A stretch of DNA of 62,321 bases from Pricia antarctica. Lineage in GTDB: Bacteria > Bacteroidota > Bacteroidia > Flavobacteriales > Flavobacteriaceae. Within the stretch, counting starts at the first letter, position 1; every line of letters starts with the position of its first letter. Below, piece by piece: positions 2,810 through 27,878 of this stretch. Below the pieces are notes generated by a model. The model saw nothing but the letters and a program-made list of their open reading frames with translations. It searched no databases and had not been told where the DNA came from. The position numbers and the translations under genes were made by a program. Location: contig DRGL01000023.1 of the NCBI GenBank assembly GCA_011050085.1, positions 372,571 through 434,891 of the forward strand, written 5' to 3'.

Positions 2810-4737
2810 ACCAAGCCTCCCTCCACCGACTGATTGCATCGGCACAAACCGATACCGATATGCCATCTGAACTTGGAAAACTTTTTCATCTTAGGTTAGC
2901 TGGCAATCTTACTTTAATCAAGGATTTATTTTTTACGCTTTATCCTGAAAATGAAAATACAGAATCCTTTGAAAAGCTGTTATCCGAATTTCTTGTGCTT
3001 TTCGAGGAAAGACCTGAGAACCTTCAGTTGCAAGATGTAGACCGACTTCGTGGTGGAGACTGGTATCGGTCAGAGCAGCTTGCGGGTATGCAATTATACG
3101 TTGACCACTTTAATAAAGACCTAAAAGGTCTCAAAAACAAATTAGGTTATTTTGAAAAATTAGGTATCAACTTTCTCCATCTTATGCCTATTACCCCGAG
3201 ACCTAAAGGCGAGAACGATGGTGGATATGCGGTTAATAGCTACCATGAAGTTGATGAAAAATACGGAACACGGCAAGACTTATTGACGCTGACGGAAACC
3301 ATGCGTAAGAAGAACATGTTCTTAATGATGGATTTTGTCGCCAATCATACCTCTAACGAATTTTCATGGGCGAAAAAAGCCATCTCCGGAGATGAAAAAT
3401 ACCAAGGTTACTACTATATGTACCCGAATAGAAGCATGCCCGATGCTTTTGAACAAACCTTACCCGAAATTTTTCCGATGACCTCCCCAGGTAATTTCAC
3501 CTACGAACCGGAAATGAAAAAGTGGGTTATGACCGTGTTTAATAACTATCAGTGGGACTTAAACTATACAAACCCTGAGGTTTTTATTGAGATGTTACGC
3601 AACTTGATGAAGTTGGTGAATCTCGGGGTCGATGTAGTACGTTTGGATGCCTTGGCATTTATGTGGAAAAAATTGGGCACCCAGTCTCAAAACCTGCCCG
3701 AGGCCCACGCCTTGATTTCTTTATTTCGGCTGTGTTTGCAAATAATCGCCCCTGGCGTAGTATTACTAGCGGAAGCTATCGTAGCCCCAAATGAAATCAT
3801 TAAATATTTTGGCTCGGGAAGATTAAAAGGCAATGAATGCGAAATCGCATACAATGCAACGCTCATGGCACTTTTGTGGGACGCGATAGCTACAAAAAAA
3901 ACAGCTCTAGTGTACAAGAATTTGTACAACCTACCTAAAAAGCCCGAAGCGGCCACTTGGATCAATTACATTCGGTGCCATGATGATATCGGTCTAGGTT
4001 TTGAAGACCAGTTCATTGATGAAATAGGATGGAACGCCCAAAACCATCGTCGCTTCTTATTAAATTATTACTGTCAAGGTTTGGATTGGTCTCCGGCGAA
4101 AGGTGAAATTTTTATGTACAATCCAAAAACGGGTGATGGAAGAATTACCGGTAGTGCTGCTTCGTTGCTAGGATTGGAAAAGGCACTTGAACAAAAAAAT
4201 AAGGCCAAAATTGACTTGGCCATCGCCAAAATAATTATGATGCATGGCATCGTACTATCATATGGTGGCATCCCATTAATTTATGCTGGGGATGAAATAG
4301 GTACGCTTAACGACTACTCGTATTTAGAAGATACGCATAAAAAGGAGGATAGCCGGTGGGTAAATAGGCCTCAACAAGACTGGACAACCGTTGAGAACCT
4401 TGACGATAAGACATCCTATCAATCCACAATTTTCTTTGCGTTACAAAACTTAATCCGTATCCGTAAGCAGCATCTTGCCTTTGCCGATACGAACAATCTT
4501 GCATTATACGATAACCCTAACCCACACGTACTTTTGTATGAGAGAACTCTGAACAATGAGGAGGGGGTTTTGGTAGTCTGTAACTTTAATGATGAGCCGC
4601 AGCTTTTGGACAAAATAACATTAGGGGCTTATGGCACAAAAGCAGGGTTGGAAGATTTAATTACAGGCAACAGCATAACGTTCGAATACGGTAAAGTAAA
4701 AGTTGAGCCTTACCAATTATTTTGGTTTCAGAGCTAG
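2806..4737 (+). CDS. Amylosucrase / sucrose hydrolase-type GH13 enzyme
   Basis: A 643-residue alpha-amylase-clan enzyme resembling amylosucrase (GH13 subfamily 4) along its length. The N-terminal helical domain is followed by a (beta/alpha)8 barrel with DFVANHTSNE, the nucleophile in DVVRLDALAF (Asp281), the acid/base in LLAEAIVAP (Glu323) and the transition-state stabiliser in IRCHDDIG (His392-Asp393). The family-typical segments TSPGNFTYEP, QWDLNY, IYAGDEIGTLND and DSRW are present. Amylosucrase moves glucose from sucrose onto an alpha-1,4-glucan and releases fructose; some close relatives mainly hydrolyse sucrose, and sequence inspection cannot separate the two. There is no signal peptide, so it should act in the cytoplasm on imported or self-made sucrose. 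Coupled to the upstream fructokinase; no sucrose transporter lies in the window. Confidence 0.9.
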   Translation: MNQASLHRLIASAQTDTDMPSELGKLFHLRLAGNLTLIKDLFFTLYPENENTESFEKLLSEFLVLFEERPENLQLQDVDRLRGGDWYRSEQLAGMQLYVDHFNKDLKGLKNKLGYFEKLGINFLHLMPITPRPKGENDGGYAVNSYHEVDEKYGTRQDLLTLTETMRKKNMFLMMDFVANHTSNEFSWAKKAISGDEKYQGYYYMYPNRSMPDAFEQTLPEIFPMTSPGNFTYEPEMKKWVMTVFNNYQWDLNYTNPEVFIEMLRNLMKLVNLGVDVVRLDALAFMWKKLGTQSQNLPEAHALISLFRLCLQIIAPGVVLLAEAIVAPNEIIKYFGSGRLKGNECEIAYNATLMALLWDAIATKKTALVYKNLYNLPKKPEAATWINYIRCHDDIGLGFEDQFIDEIGWNAQNHRRFLLNYYCQGLDWSPAKGEIFMYNPKTGDGRITGSAASLLGLEKALEQKNKAKIDLAIAKIIMMHGIVLSYGGIPLIYAGDEIGTLNDYSYLEDTHKKEDSRWVNRPQQDWTTVENLDDKTSYQSTIFFALQNLIRIRKQHLAFADTNNLALYDNPNPHVLLYERTLNNEEGVLVVCNFNDEPQLLDKITLGAYGTKAGLEDLITGNSITFEYGKVKVEPYQLFWFQS

Positions 4738-24242: not shown

Positions 24243-26141
24243 ATGAGCGACGCTATCAAACATGAATGTGGTATTTCGGTAATCCGATTGCTAAAACCCT
24301 TGGAATATTATAAGGAAAAATATGGTACTGCCTTTTATGGGGTCAACAAGATGTACCTCATGATGGAAAAGCAGCACAACCGTGGTCAAGACGGTGCAGG
24401 CTTTGCCAGTATTAAATTGGATATGAAGGCCGGTGAGCGCTACATGAGCAGAGTTCGCTCTGCGGAGCAACAACCCATACAGGATATCTTTGACCAAATC
24501 AACGATCGAATCAATACTACTTTAAAAGAACATCCGGAATATGTAGATGATGTTGCGATGCAAAAAAAACATATCCCTTATATCGGCGAAGTGCTTTTAG
24601 GCCATGTTCGCTATGGTACTTTCGGTAAAAATAGTATCGAAAGCGTTCATCCATTCTTAAGGCAGAACAATTGGATGCACCGCAACCTCATAATAGCCGG
24701 AAACTTCAACATGACCAATGTGAACGAACTGTTCGATAATTTGATTCAGTTGGGGCAACATCCCAAGGAAATGGCGGATACGGTCACAGTAATGGAAAAA
24801 ATTGGTCATTTTCTTGACGATGCTGTTGCAAAGCTCTATAAACAGATTAAGAAACAAGGCCATACAAAACAAGAAGCTTCCCCATTGATTGCCGAACGAT
24901 TAAAAGTTCATAAGATTTTAAGAAGAGCGGCAAAAAATTGGGATGGTGGGTATGCTATGGCCGGACTGTTGGGCCATGGTGATGCTTTCGTTTTGCGGGA
25001 CCCTGCAGGCATACGTCCAGTTTATCACTATCAAGACGACGAAGTGGTAGTGGTCGCTTCCGAAAGACCTGCAATACAAACTGTATTCAACGTTCCTTAT
25101 GAAGAAGTCAAAGAATTGACTCCGGGCCATGCCATTATCGTGAAAAAGAACGGCAGTACATCCGTCATGGAAATATTGCATCCAGTAGAGAGAAAGGCCT
25201 GCTCATTCGAACGCATCTATTTCTCAAGAGGCAGTGATAAAGAAATATATCAAGAACGTAAAATGCTGGGGAAATTACTTTTCCCCCAAATATTAAAATC
25301 GATTGAAAACGACATTAAGAACACCGTATTCTCCTATATACCCAATACCGCTGAAACCTCATTTTATGGAATGGTCAAGGAGGCTCAAAATTATCTAAAC
25401 AAGCGAAAGGAAGAGCAAATTTTAGCCTTAGGTACCAAAATTACTAGCAAGCAACTTCATGAAATTCTCGAAATACGTCCACGTATAGAAAAGGTGGCCA
25501 TCAAGGATGCAAAATTACGTACGTTTATTACACAAGATAGCAGCAGGGATGATTTGGTCGCACACATTTATGATATTTCATATGGTTCTGTGGATAAAGG
25601 GGACAATTTGGTCATTATAGATGATAGCATTGTTCGTGGTACGACCCTTAAAAAAAGTATTCTCCGTATTTTAGACAGGTTATGGCCTAAAAAAATAATT
25701 GTAGTTTCTTCTGCCCCACAGATTCGTTATCCCGATTGTTACGGTATCGATATGGCCAAGCTAGAAGATTTCATAGCCTTTAAAGCTGCTTTGGCATTGC
25801 ACCAAGAACGTCTTACTATGAATGTGGTCGATGACATTTATGACAAATGTTTGGCGCAGACCGATTCTAAAGATATCGATGTAATTAATTACGTAAAGGA
25901 TTTTTACGCTCCTTTTACCGCACAGGAAATTTCCCAAAAAATCGGTGAGTTATTGAGTCCTGATGGTATTAATGCCGAAGTGGAAATTATTTATCAAACT
26001 ATAGAAAACCTACATAAAGCTTGTCCAAAAAACTTGGGTGATTGGTATTTCACTGGAAACTATCCTACCGCAGGTGGCAATAGAGTAGTTAATAGAGCAT
26101 TTATAAATTTTTACGAAGGTAAAAACGAACGAGCTTACTAA
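24243..26141 (+). CDS. Long amidophosphoribosyltransferase-like protein (PurF family)
   Basis: A 632-residue protein with a class II glutamine amidotransferase domain followed by a phosphoribosyltransferase domain. The catalytic nucleophile would be Cys9 (HECGISVIR), so an eight-residue propeptide must be removed. Other GATase motifs are GHVRYGTFG and AGNFNMTN; the linker contains RDPAGIRPVYHY and the PRPP loop is VIIDDSIVRGTTLKK. Ordinary PurF is about 470-510 residues; here the extra length is a long N-terminal insertion and a C-terminal extension of about 100 residues. Many Flavobacteria seem to have such a long homologue beside the usual purF, so purine synthesis is not certain as its role. 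Four small RNA units follow directly. Confidence 0.85.
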   Translation: MSDAIKHECGISVIRLLKPLEYYKEKYGTAFYGVNKMYLMMEKQHNRGQDGAGFASIKLDMKAGERYMSRVRSAEQQPIQDIFDQINDRINTTLKEHPEYVDDVAMQKKHIPYIGEVLLGHVRYGTFGKNSIESVHPFLRQNNWMHRNLIIAGNFNMTNVNELFDNLIQLGQHPKEMADTVTVMEKIGHFLDDAVAKLYKQIKKQGHTKQEASPLIAERLKVHKILRRAAKNWDGGYAMAGLLGHGDAFVLRDPAGIRPVYHYQDDEVVVVASERPAIQTVFNVPYEEVKELTPGHAIIVKKNGSTSVMEILHPVERKACSFERIYFSRGSDKEIYQERKMLGKLLFPQILKSIENDIKNTVFSYIPNTAETSFYGMVKEAQNYLNKRKEEQILALGTKITSKQLHEILEIRPRIEKVAIKDAKLRTFITQDSSRDDLVAHIYDISYGSVDKGDNLVIIDDSIVRGTTLKKSILRILDRLWPKKIIVVSSAPQIRYPDCYGIDMAKLEDFIAFKAALALHQERLTMNVVDDIYDKCLAQTDSKDIDVINYVKDFYAPFTAQEISQKIGELLSPDGINAEVEIIYQTIENLHKACPKNLGDWYFTGNYPTAGGNRVVNRAFINFYEGKNERAY

Positions 26142-26257
26142 TGTGCATTAATTAGCTGATTTATAGGATTTCATCGATGAACTACTTTTAAACGTGTATT
26201 TCATCGACAATTTCCGCTATATGTCGTTTTTTGAACGATACAACTATTTTCCCAAGC

Positions 26258-26265
26258 TACATTTG
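26258..26265 (+). promoter_or_regulatory. -7 box of small RNA unit 1
   Basis: TACATTTG matches the Bacteroidota primary-sigma consensus TAnnTTTG and lies 5 bp before the conserved RNA start. No clear -33 TTTG box at the usual spacing. Confidence 0.6.
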
Positions 26266-26270
26266 AGCTT

Positions 26271-26342
26271 ACCATAGCATAAGTAGGTTAAGTTCATGGT
26301 AAGATTTGGGGCAAAAAAGGCGGAGACTTCTCCGCCTTTTTT
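26271..26342 (+). ncRNA. Candidate small RNA, unit 1 of 4
   Basis: A predicted 72-nt transcript. Its 5' part is a hairpin, here extended to CTTACCAT/ATGGTAAG (stem from 26268), around a 20-base loop AGCATAAGTAGGTTAAGTTC. A constant AAGATTTGGGG linker follows. The 3' part is an intrinsic terminator: GGCGGAGA, loop CT, TCTCCGCC and six T (26319-26342). The four units share about 40 identical or nearly identical bases while their spacers do not align by eye. No reading frame is shared beyond ATGGTAAGATTTGGG (MVRFG), after which frames diverge through the terminator. Function unknown. The terminator also ends the purF-like transcript. Confidence 0.72.
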
Positions 26343-26559
26343 ATTTTAGAAGTGTTTGCTTTTTGATTAATTCCCTGCTTATAATGTATTAATACCAACG
26401 GACGAACAAGTCTTAAGGTAGTTTGACTAATTCAGGAAGTATACCACGACTTTCTAGAATATTACAAAAGGTCTCTAAAATCGATAGTAGTTAGAATGCT
26501 ACTTAACCCAAATATTCCTCCATACAACAAGAAATATTTTCCTCGCTGGCACTCTGTCA
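26343..26559. other. Spacer between small RNA units 1 and 2
   Basis: 217 bp of AT-rich DNA without a supported gene. It does not align by eye with the other two spacers, so the whole unit was not simply duplicated recently with its flanks. Short open frames on both strands here run through the RNA units and look accidental. Confidence 0.6.
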
Positions 26560-26567
26560 TACATTTG
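26560..26567 (+). promoter_or_regulatory. -7 box of small RNA unit 2
   Basis: TACATTTG, an exact TAnnTTTG match, 4 bp before the conserved ACCAT start. Confidence 0.6.
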
Positions 26568-26571
26568 TGGA

Positions 26572-26643
26572 ACCATAGCATAAGTAGGTTAAGTTCATGG
26601 TAAGATTTGGGGAAAAGGCGGAACAAATTTGTTCCGCCTTTTT
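26572..26643 (+). ncRNA. Candidate small RNA, unit 2 of 4
   Basis: A second 72-nt unit. Bases from ACCAT to TTTGGGG are identical to unit 1. The 5' stem here is five pairs (ACCAT/ATGGT). The terminator is GGCGGAACAAA/TTTGTTCCGCC, a perfect 11-base inverted repeat (26617-26638) followed by five T. The terminator arms differ from unit 1 but still pair, a compensatory pattern that supports selection on RNA structure. Confidence 0.72.
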
Positions 26644-26899
26644 ATATATGGGCTTTTTTGACTGGCATAAGTCTAACAACCAATTTATAAAGAAACCGCA
26701 TTTAAGAAGGTTCACTTTCCTAGTAGTAATGGAATTGTCTAGGAATAGGCATATACGGTCTCCCTCTAGAGCTTCTTTTGGTTTGAAATCAATACTCATA
26801 ATCTCTGTTATAAAAAAATCCGATATTGATAGAATTCTGTAGTTCAACCGAGGAAACGACCGTTTACCTAATTCATTTTAAAATAGAATAGAGTTATCC

Positions 26900-26907
26900 T
26901 ATTTTTG
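26900..26907 (+). promoter_or_regulatory. -7 box of small RNA unit 3
   Basis: TATTTTTG, an exact TAnnTTTG match, 4 bp before the conserved ACCAT start. Confidence 0.6.
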
Positions 26908-26911
26908 GAGA

Positions 26912-26983
26912 ACCATAGCATAAGTAGGTTAAGTTCATGGTAAGATTTGGGGAAAAGGCGGAACGTACATGTTCCGCCTTTTT
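26912..26983 (+). ncRNA. Candidate small RNA, unit 3 of 4
   Basis: A third 72-nt unit, identical to unit 2 through the first 53 bases. Its terminator is GGCGGAAC, loop GTACAT, GTTCCGCC and five T (26957-26983). The loop differs from unit 2 while the stem is kept. The 256-bp spacer before it holds no supported gene. Confidence 0.72.
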
Positions 26984-27103
26984 ATTTGTCTAAAATTGAG
27001 TGACTGTCGTATTAACCCCAACCCATACCAAGATAAACCTCATTATTGAACAAAAAAAACCATAATATTGAGAATATTTCTTTTTTATTTGTAGCAATAC
27101 CAG

Positions 27104-27111
27104 TATTTTTG
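27104..27111 (+). promoter_or_regulatory. -7 box of small RNA unit 4
   Basis: TATTTTTG, an exact TAnnTTTG match, 5 bp before the conserved CCAT segment. Confidence 0.6.
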
Positions 27112-27115
27112 AGTT

Positions 27116-27186
27116 GCCATAGCATAAGTAGGTTAAGTTTATGGTAAGATTTGGGACGAAAAGGGTGGAGACTTCTCCGCCCTTTT
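27116..27186 (+). ncRNA. Candidate small RNA, unit 4 of 4 (most divergent)
   Basis: A 71-nt unit. It starts GCCAT instead of ACCAT, with TTGCCAT still pairing with ATGGTAA through one G-U pair, and has one C to T change before ATGGT. The linker reads TTTGGGACGAAAA. The terminator is GGGTGGAGA, loop CT, TCTCCGCCC and four T (27163-27186), with one T-G wobble pair. Changes in stems keep pairing, and the 20-base loop differs by one base from the others. Confidence 0.7.
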
Positions 27187-27211
27187 CTATTTTGCAGTAG
27201 TACTATAAAAA

Positions 27212-27245
27212 AGCCCGTCACACAATGAAGTGTGACGGGCTTTTA
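27212..27245 (-). terminator. Strong terminator of sodA, usable from both sides
   Basis: A perfect 12-bp stem, AGCCCGTCACAC and GTGTGACGGGCT, with a 6-base loop. On the minus strand it is followed by a run of T (plus-strand A-run at 27206-27211), about 25 bp after the sodA stop. The plus side also has a T-rich tail, so it can insulate sodA from the small RNA array. Confidence 0.85.
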
Positions 27246-27269
27246 TTTTGATTAGATGTGTATCTAATA

Positions 27270-27878
27270 TTACTTACCATCGGCGTAGCGCTTCGCTACT
27301 TCATCCCAATTGATTACGTTAAAAAACGCTTCTATATACTCAGGTCTTTTATTTTGATAATTCAAATAATATGCATGTTCCCATACATCAAGACCTAAAA
27401 TAGGGTGGCCTCCACAACCTGTGTCAGGCATAACCGGGTTATCTTGGTTAGGTGTAGAGCAAATTTCTACTTTTCCACCTTCGTGTACGCAGAGCCATGC
27501 CCAACCTGAACCAAAACGTGAACCTGCAGCTTCAGTAAATTTCTCTTTGAAGCCATCGAAAGACCCAAACGCAGAATCTATGGCGTCTGCCAATTCTCCC
27601 GATGGGTTTCCACCACCGTCTGGTGACATAACCTTCCAAAATAAGGAGTGGTTATAAAATCCACCTCCGTTATTTCGCACAGCAGAGTTAGACATATCGA
27701 GATTACTTAATATATCTTCGATTTCTTTTCCATCATGAGTAGTGCCTTCAATAGCATCATTTAATTTTTTCGTGTATCCCGCATGGTGTTTATCATGGTG
27801 AATTTCCATAGTTCGCGCATCTATATTAGGTTCTAATGCGTCAAATGCATACGGTAATTTTGGTAGTTCAAAAGCCAT
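27270..27878 (-). CDS. Superoxide dismutase, Fe/Mn type
   Basis: A 202-residue cytoplasmic superoxide dismutase. Metal ligands are His27 (in MEIHHDKHH), a His in YNHSLFW, and Asp and His in [13 protein letters not shown]. The order and length are normal. I cannot decide between iron and manganese by eye. The gene is monocistronic, with a strong terminator after it. It is divergent from the AddA-like gene, and the shared intergenic region contains the palindrome TTCGATATCGAA (27940-27951). Confidence 0.95.

Follow-up and report, generated by a model that had tools for sequence, protein, structure and literature searches.

Tandem sibling small RNAs of the Flavobacteriaceae with complements at mRNA starts and a putative yidC-linked sponge

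The window, by which we mean the whole 62,321-nucleotide stretch of Pricia antarctica DNA analysed here, carries four tandem copies of a small RNA unit between a purF-like gene and sodA. We consider it likely that these are sibling sRNAs that act in trans by pairing with mRNA starts and that, in a subclade including this genome, they are titrated by a second RNA linked to yidC. Each RNA would be about 72 nt long, with its own housekeeping-type promoter and terminator, and would offer two conserved segments for pairing: UAAGUAGGUUAA, in the region of the apical loop, and AGAUUUGGGG, the linker, which is single-stranded. The predicted partner on the mRNA is bipartite, 5'-CCCAAAU(C)-(0-11 nt)-UUAACCUACUU-3', and immediately precedes the AUG; as an alternative mode of pairing, gldL and gldM would be bound at single sites some 35-50 nt upstream. 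Pairing would most likely block translation start, repressing rather than activating its targets, which are predicted to be envelope and secreted proteins (lipoproteins, peptidases, esterases) together with gldL and gldM of the type IX secretion (T9SS) and gliding motor. The second RNA, whose gene usually lies beside yidC, would mimic the target site and probably titrate the siblings. We give roughly even chances to a broader, family-wide circuit in which the siblings repress GldL/GldM along with secreted peptidases and lipoproteins, the yidC-linked mimic, in some genomes a tandem set too, releases them, no RRM protein takes part, and motor dosage is tied to cargo.

To our knowledge, targets have been assigned to few flavobacteriaceal sRNAs. 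The array RNA would be an sRNA found in most genera sampled, with predicted envelope and type IX secretion/gliding motor targets and a candidate sponge in one subclade, and it opens T9SS and gliding to direct tests of post-transcriptional control. If the reading is true, it would extend the sibling-plus-sponge design beyond the Proteobacteria. Flavobacteriaceae make up a large share of communities in soil, marine and freshwater settings, according to the available text of PMC9723704.

The array units, their conservation and their spread

The four copies lie on the plus strand at 26271..26342, 26572..26643, 26912..26983 and 27116..27187, each recognised by sequence, alignment, folding and a match to R1, a covariance model built from 40 units (matches at E 0.01 or better). 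Upstream is the purF-like amidophosphoribosyltransferase gene (24243..26141, plus strand; best NCBIfam match TIGR01134, below cut-off), and downstream, in convergent orientation, is sodA, encoding a superoxide dismutase of the Mn/Fe type (27270..27878, minus strand). Every unit consists of an exact TAnnTTTG box, a gap of 4-5 bp, then ACCATAGCATAAGTAGGTTAAGTTCATGGTAAGATTTGGGG, then a terminator. The boxes read TACATTTG in copies 1 and 2 (26258..26265 and 26560..26567, plus strand) and TATTTTTG in copies 3 and 4 (26900..26907 and 27104..27111, plus strand); TAnnTTTG is the -7 box consensus given in the accessible part of PMC9723704. Copy 1 has the linker AAGATTTGGGG, and copy 4 departs from ACCATAGCATAAGTAGGTTAAGTTCATGGTAAGATTTGGGG by a first G, a T for C and GGGA (GCCATAG start, TTTATGG variant, GGGACG linker end). 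Aligned, all four share CCATAGCATAAGTAGGTTAAGTT(C/T)ATGGTAAGATTTGGG, identical save for the single C/T. The arrangement proposed in an earlier, sequence-only reading, with four boxed and separately terminated units giving predicted RNAs of about 72 nt around a near-invariant core, is thus borne out.

The predicted structure of each copy has a 5' hairpin and a terminator hairpin with an unpaired linker between them, and it is more stable than those of dinucleotide-shuffled sequences (z -3.8 to -5.7; 0, 0, 0 and 1 of 200 shuffles were as good). The 5' hairpin had been described as keeping a 20-base loop; further weak pairs are predicted inside it (AGC/GUU and UAA/UUA around GUAGG). A separate hairpin, AAAAAAGCCCGTCACAC...GTGTGACGGGCTTTT, lies between copy 4 and sodA (window 27206-27246) and is probably the sodA terminator.

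The core is present in 398 non-redundant units, drawn from 182 loci, which puts the array units far beyond chance. Across these units there is almost no variation in AGTAGGTTAAGTT, ATGGTA or the linker GATTTGGG. Linkers fall into two main classes, GGTAAGATTTGGGG and GGTAGATTTGGGG, that differ by a one-base indel (GGTAAGATTT versus GGTAGATTT); this difference shifts the frame and so rules out a conserved reading frame. In 23 units and a few more, a core variant, CATTAGTAGG, has a single-base change in the predicted apical stem; it was noted alongside loci L097-L116, which are mostly of one genus (g146).

Pairing-preserving variation had been claimed for both helices. It was found in the terminator, where 4/9 pairs show two-sided (compensatory) changes: two-sided cells number 24 against 9.2 in shuffles, and covarying pairs 4 against 2.5, a count that 58/500 shuffles reach. 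None of the 11 pairs in the 5' hairpin has a two-sided change, which leaves that hairpin unproven by covariation. Upstream of the core, an EM search of 396 regions returned a shared motif, GcatTTcATCtAAaA, starting 60-61 bp before the core in 227/396 and 80-82 bp before it in 100/396. Its recurrence suggests a common regulator of the array sRNAs. In the window, the sequence before copy 1 resembles this possible regulator motif in 11/14 letters (26196..26213, plus strand), and copies 2-4 match it poorly (8-9/14).

Searching with R1, we found the array sRNA in 165/199 genomes of the same family, Flavobacteriaceae, with 1-6 copies per positive genome among those listed; the genome of the window has four, all at the purF-sodA locus. 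Of 395 genomes drawn from the phylum, 37 matched, 34 of them belonging to the same family. The three others (E 0.0045-0.0068) are at chance level, since about that many are expected over some 350 genomes. The wide search proposed earlier therefore places the RNA in most of the family and at chance level elsewhere. In a scan of named contigs for the core, the matches listed include Maribacter, Zobellia, Cellulophaga, Arenibacter, Allomuricauda, Winogradskyella, Aquimarina, Flavobacterium and others. In a sample of 30 loci (L004-L033), 26 hold real units and 4 are two-mismatch matches without a unit. The order purF-array-sodA is mostly kept: purF adjoins the array in 24/26 unit-bearing loci, and sodA lies within 3 kb or less in 20/26. 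In two same-genus relatives (L023, L026) the units are identical at 67-72 of 72 positions and the spacers at 27-66%, and in a Pricia MAG (L117) the copies are spaced as in G003, a genome of the same genus. Single core copies were also seen away from the main array (G008 C13, G009 C32, G010 C24, G017 C1, G027 C2), and of these only that in G027 (L016) was seen to belong to a complete unit lying outside the purF-sodA locus.

The suggestion that the units might match an existing Rfam motif did not hold, as no family reached its gathering score in a scan of the window. The weak matches all lie below every gathering score, and that to STnc40 is mostly terminator. A literature search covering flavobacterial sRNAs, RNA sponges and gliding turned up no paper that we recognised as describing the array sRNA, and the core sequence searched as text gave a single match, which is unrelated.

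The units had been interpreted as either trans-acting RNAs or protein-binding decoys. As a decoy array of the CsrB or 6S kind, the core would titrate an RNA-binding protein and the copies would provide dosage, and both the multicopy design and the roughly 40 nearly fixed nucleotides, more than a seed usually needs, fit such a role. RRM_1 proteins (PF00076) of the RbpB type that partners FopS were found in 0/24 same-family genomes scanned, our own included, with a positive Bacteroides control. Moreover, the mRNA-start sites and the second RNA described below are complementary to the array RNA, and complementarity calls for pairing. We regard the decoy array as improbable; the same two sets of complements support the trans-acting half of the earlier proposal, to which a decoy function need not be added, though the array RNA may have a protein partner.

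Complementary sites before start codons

The proposed pairing of the siblings with mRNA starts takes its target pattern from two loci (L415 and L418) in which the loop and linker complements stand side by side before an ATG; it was chosen because it was first seen there. Written as CCAAATN{0,11}TAACCTACTT, the reverse complement of linker plus loop, it gave 45 rows at 44 distinct places in 299 genomes, against 24, by our own tally, for the reversed pattern. At 25/44 places an ATG opening at least 20 codons follows within 0-5 nt. After one place antisense to an sRNA copy (G220) and one in a second-RNA gene (G615) were dropped, 23/44 stand directly before an ATG, where 2.3 are expected from the 5.2% of 34,400 random positions in the same loci that meet the ATG criterion; 3 of these 23 were known beforehand, two having suggested the pattern and one (contig C8 of our own genome, L040) having been seen earlier. 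This and related patterns were picked after early matches had been seen. Target prediction, another check proposed at the outset, thus leads to sites at mRNA starts. The other 19/44 places lie elsewhere, one of them in the gldL region of G085.

The 23 genes, grouped partly by eye, include a lipoprotein with an NNDPILGIW-like string (5 genomes), a tiny membrane protein, MKN(V/I)KRIV (5), a CAP-domain lipoprotein (3; Pfam run on one), an MTCLECN-type protein (3, plus G021), M28, S8 and M10-type peptidases (1 each), an esterase, a protein with a T9SS sorting domain and two proteins without a family. The same gene types bear the bipartite site in several genomes. All 16 start sites that fall in R1-scored genomes are in RNA-bearing ones, where about 13 would be expected. 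The bipartite target-like pattern is also present in ten viral contigs (L531-L540). Spread by phage was considered and rejected, the array sRNA core and the second-RNA 5' end having no exact match in viral contigs.

In our own genome, we scanned the 70 nt upstream of 893 gene starts, taken from our own ORF calls in a 1.26 Mb sample. Linker-complementary 8-mers are enriched relative to shuffles (CCCAAATC, 6 versus 1.3; CCAAATCT, 5 versus 1.4), and the 38 complementary 8-mers tested total 75 versus 51 (sd 8); core-complementary 7-mers before these genes show no total excess (211 versus 208). Two of the starts with enriched 8-mers belong to gldL and gldM, adjacent T9SS motor genes. A start with a loop-complementary site belongs to a PorP/SprF protein, and an esterase with CCCAAATCTTAgaccATG is of the same Pfam family as the esterase with the bipartite site.

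The gldL site was compared among 71 genomes (30 loci, for which 80 genomes had been searched, 40 regions and our own genome), sorted into RNA-bearing and RNA-lacking by the R1 search. The mean longest complement in the gldL 5' region is 8.76 nt in 59 RNA-bearing genomes (6.28 shuffled) and 5.83 nt in 12 RNA-lacking ones (5.97 shuffled), a difference with a p of 4e-6; related genomes are not independent, and kinship inflates the counts of target sites. Complements of at least 9 nt occur in 22/59 RNA-bearing genomes and 0/12 RNA-lacking ones, those of 12 nt in 14/59, and 37/59 RNA-bearing genomes are without a gldL complement of at least 9 nt. The signal at gldM is weak (6.44 in 57 versus 5.0 in 11 genomes; p 0.016). 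As a target, sodA shows no excess (48 5' regions; mean 6.08, none of at least 9 nt), and 200 randomly drawn other genes near arrays gave a mean of 5.82 with 6 complements of at least 9 nt. The type of gldL site depends on lineage, being the loop-complementary TTAACCTACTTA at -44 to -51 in one group and the linker-complementary CCAAATCTT or CCCCAAATC in the group of the window. Exact TTAACCTACTTAA occurs at 36 places in 80 whole genomes, 14/36 of them gldL 5' regions (12 seen directly, two assigned from their coordinates); its reversed control is commoner (about 66 places, by our own tally), and TTAACCTACTTAA is informative by placement only, not by frequency.

A few complement matches were set aside because they lie in repeated, mobile-element-like sequence and not at gene starts (contig C9 of our own genome, G003 and G021). 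At these three loci (L038, L053 and L050, respectively), CCCAAATCT(T/C)ACCATAAC is followed by a repeated ...CTGCGCGTGGAT... resembling a mobile-element end, which in G003 comes shortly after a tRNA-Leu-like sequence, as judged by eye. Also by eye, the likewise sRNA-complementary CCCAAATCTGACCATAACTTAATC stands about 30 nt before a phage-capsid-like gene (L046; own C64:102394-102411, minus strand).

Could the sites before ATG be an ordinary flavobacterial translation-start motif that resembles the sRNA by chance? Flavobacterial starts are A/T-rich, and TTAACCTACTTAA is without overall over-representation. A general start motif would be at odds with the joint occurrence of both seeds at the ATG, with the absence of the site from gldL in the 12 RNA-lacking genomes and with the confinement of the scored start sites to RNA-bearing genomes. 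We give this explanation only a slight chance and favour pairing of the array sRNAs with these mRNAs.

The second RNA next to yidC

In three genomes (G615, G076 and G607) a terminator follows right after the bipartite site and a common promoter-like block precedes it. R2, a sequence-only model of these three loci, has strong matches (E<1e-7) in 65/397 family genomes by our own tally, the three source genomes included; weaker R2 matches are largely the antisense of array sRNA copies. Our own genome has two copies beside yidC (G000:C36:62995-63126 and 63872-64003, equivalent to L511:1996-2127 and 2873-3004), G154 has four in tandem, and yidC adjoins the second RNA in 43/50 loci. A scan of the three source sequences against Rfam gave no match. 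One further locus with a bipartite site before a terminator, L463 (G177), was not counted as a second-RNA gene because it is without the common upstream block.

The second RNA thus comes with a promoter-like block and a terminator of its own, and its conserved 5' end, predicted to be unstructured, is complementary to the array sRNA. For the RNAs of our own genome, the predicted duplex reaches -35 to -38 kcal/mol, compared with -13.5 to -15.4 (sd about 3) in shuffles. Among 53 distinct second-RNA genes, CCAAATCT is found in 45, CCAAATCTTACCA in 33 and AACCTA in 23; of its two complements, the one to the linker is better conserved, and that to the loop (AACCTA, 23/53) is variable. The working part of the array RNA appears to comprise the constant loop, earlier singled out as that part, and also the linker AGAUUUGGGG behind the hairpin. 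Since the second RNA has the same sense as the mRNA sites, it can act as a target mimic, and it is probably a sponge (decoy) for the array sRNAs.

The roles might be reversed, with the yidC-linked RNA regulating mRNAs and the tandem array serving as its sponge, as the four array copies against two of the second RNA in our own genome and the unstructured, conserved 5' end of the latter might suggest. The shared sense of the mRNA sites and the second RNA means, however, that only the array RNA can pair with those sites, and the array RNA is far more widespread (165/199 versus 65/397 genomes), so that we find reversed roles very improbable and retain the array RNAs as the mRNA regulators. A mobile or coding repeat in place of RNA genes, which the several copies of one core and the few copies elsewhere in some genomes might bring to mind and which had been named at the outset as a reason to abandon the reading, can be dismissed: position and neighbours are conserved, units are conserved while spacers diverge, each copy has a box and a terminator, and the indel between linker classes shifts the frame.

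Relation to known sibling sRNAs

The likeness to SisA-D and CrfA of Caulobacter, as presented in the accessible text of PMC12559287, is one of design. There, too, four siblings have a weak hairpin, then a conserved stretch that is single-stranded, and a terminator, and the unlinked CrfA is complementary to that stretch, as the second RNA is to the linker. According to the same text, SisA-D are dispersed, with unrelated promoters, and depend on Hfq, whereas the array is in tandem at one conserved locus and has a bipartite loop-plus-linker match. Qrr1-4 and QrrX of Vibrio cholerae are likewise multicopy siblings inactivated by a base-pairing sponge, in the portion of PMC9732341 at hand; unlike the array RNAs, which belong to another phylum and have predicted secretion, gliding and envelope targets, the Qrr RNAs are described there as quorum-sensing RNAs acting with Hfq. 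With both systems the array shares several near-identical siblings (four in our own genome), and a separate seed-complementary RNA gene has its counterpart here in the yidC-linked gene as judged from its sequence.

Within the Bacteroidota, the nearest system is FopS of Bacteroides (RF04319), going by the available part of PMC11697453, in which multicopy sRNAs pair near start codons. The two RNAs have a short string in common, UUCAUGGUA(..)AGAUUU, and their local alignment scores 25 (p 0.019 versus shuffles, uncorrected for choosing FopS). FopS differs, in that text, by its single-stranded 5' end, dispersed copies, RRM partner RbpB and SusC targets. Identity of the array with FopS is not supported: copy 1 scores 20.3 bits against a threshold of 56, and the window has no gathering match. 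SusC-like starts (40 versus 318 controls, one in both sets) show no clear excess of predicted pairing (p 0.44 by energy, 0.03 by z).

Rfp18 of Flavobacterium psychrophilum is, like the array RNA, a conserved flavobacterial sRNA, and it affects secreted metalloproteases, as reported in the available text of PMC9723704. It is described there as pairing through its third stem-loop, while the array RNA has two hairpins, a comparison made by description. The array sRNA could itself be among the Rfp transcripts that this text reports for F. psychrophilum.
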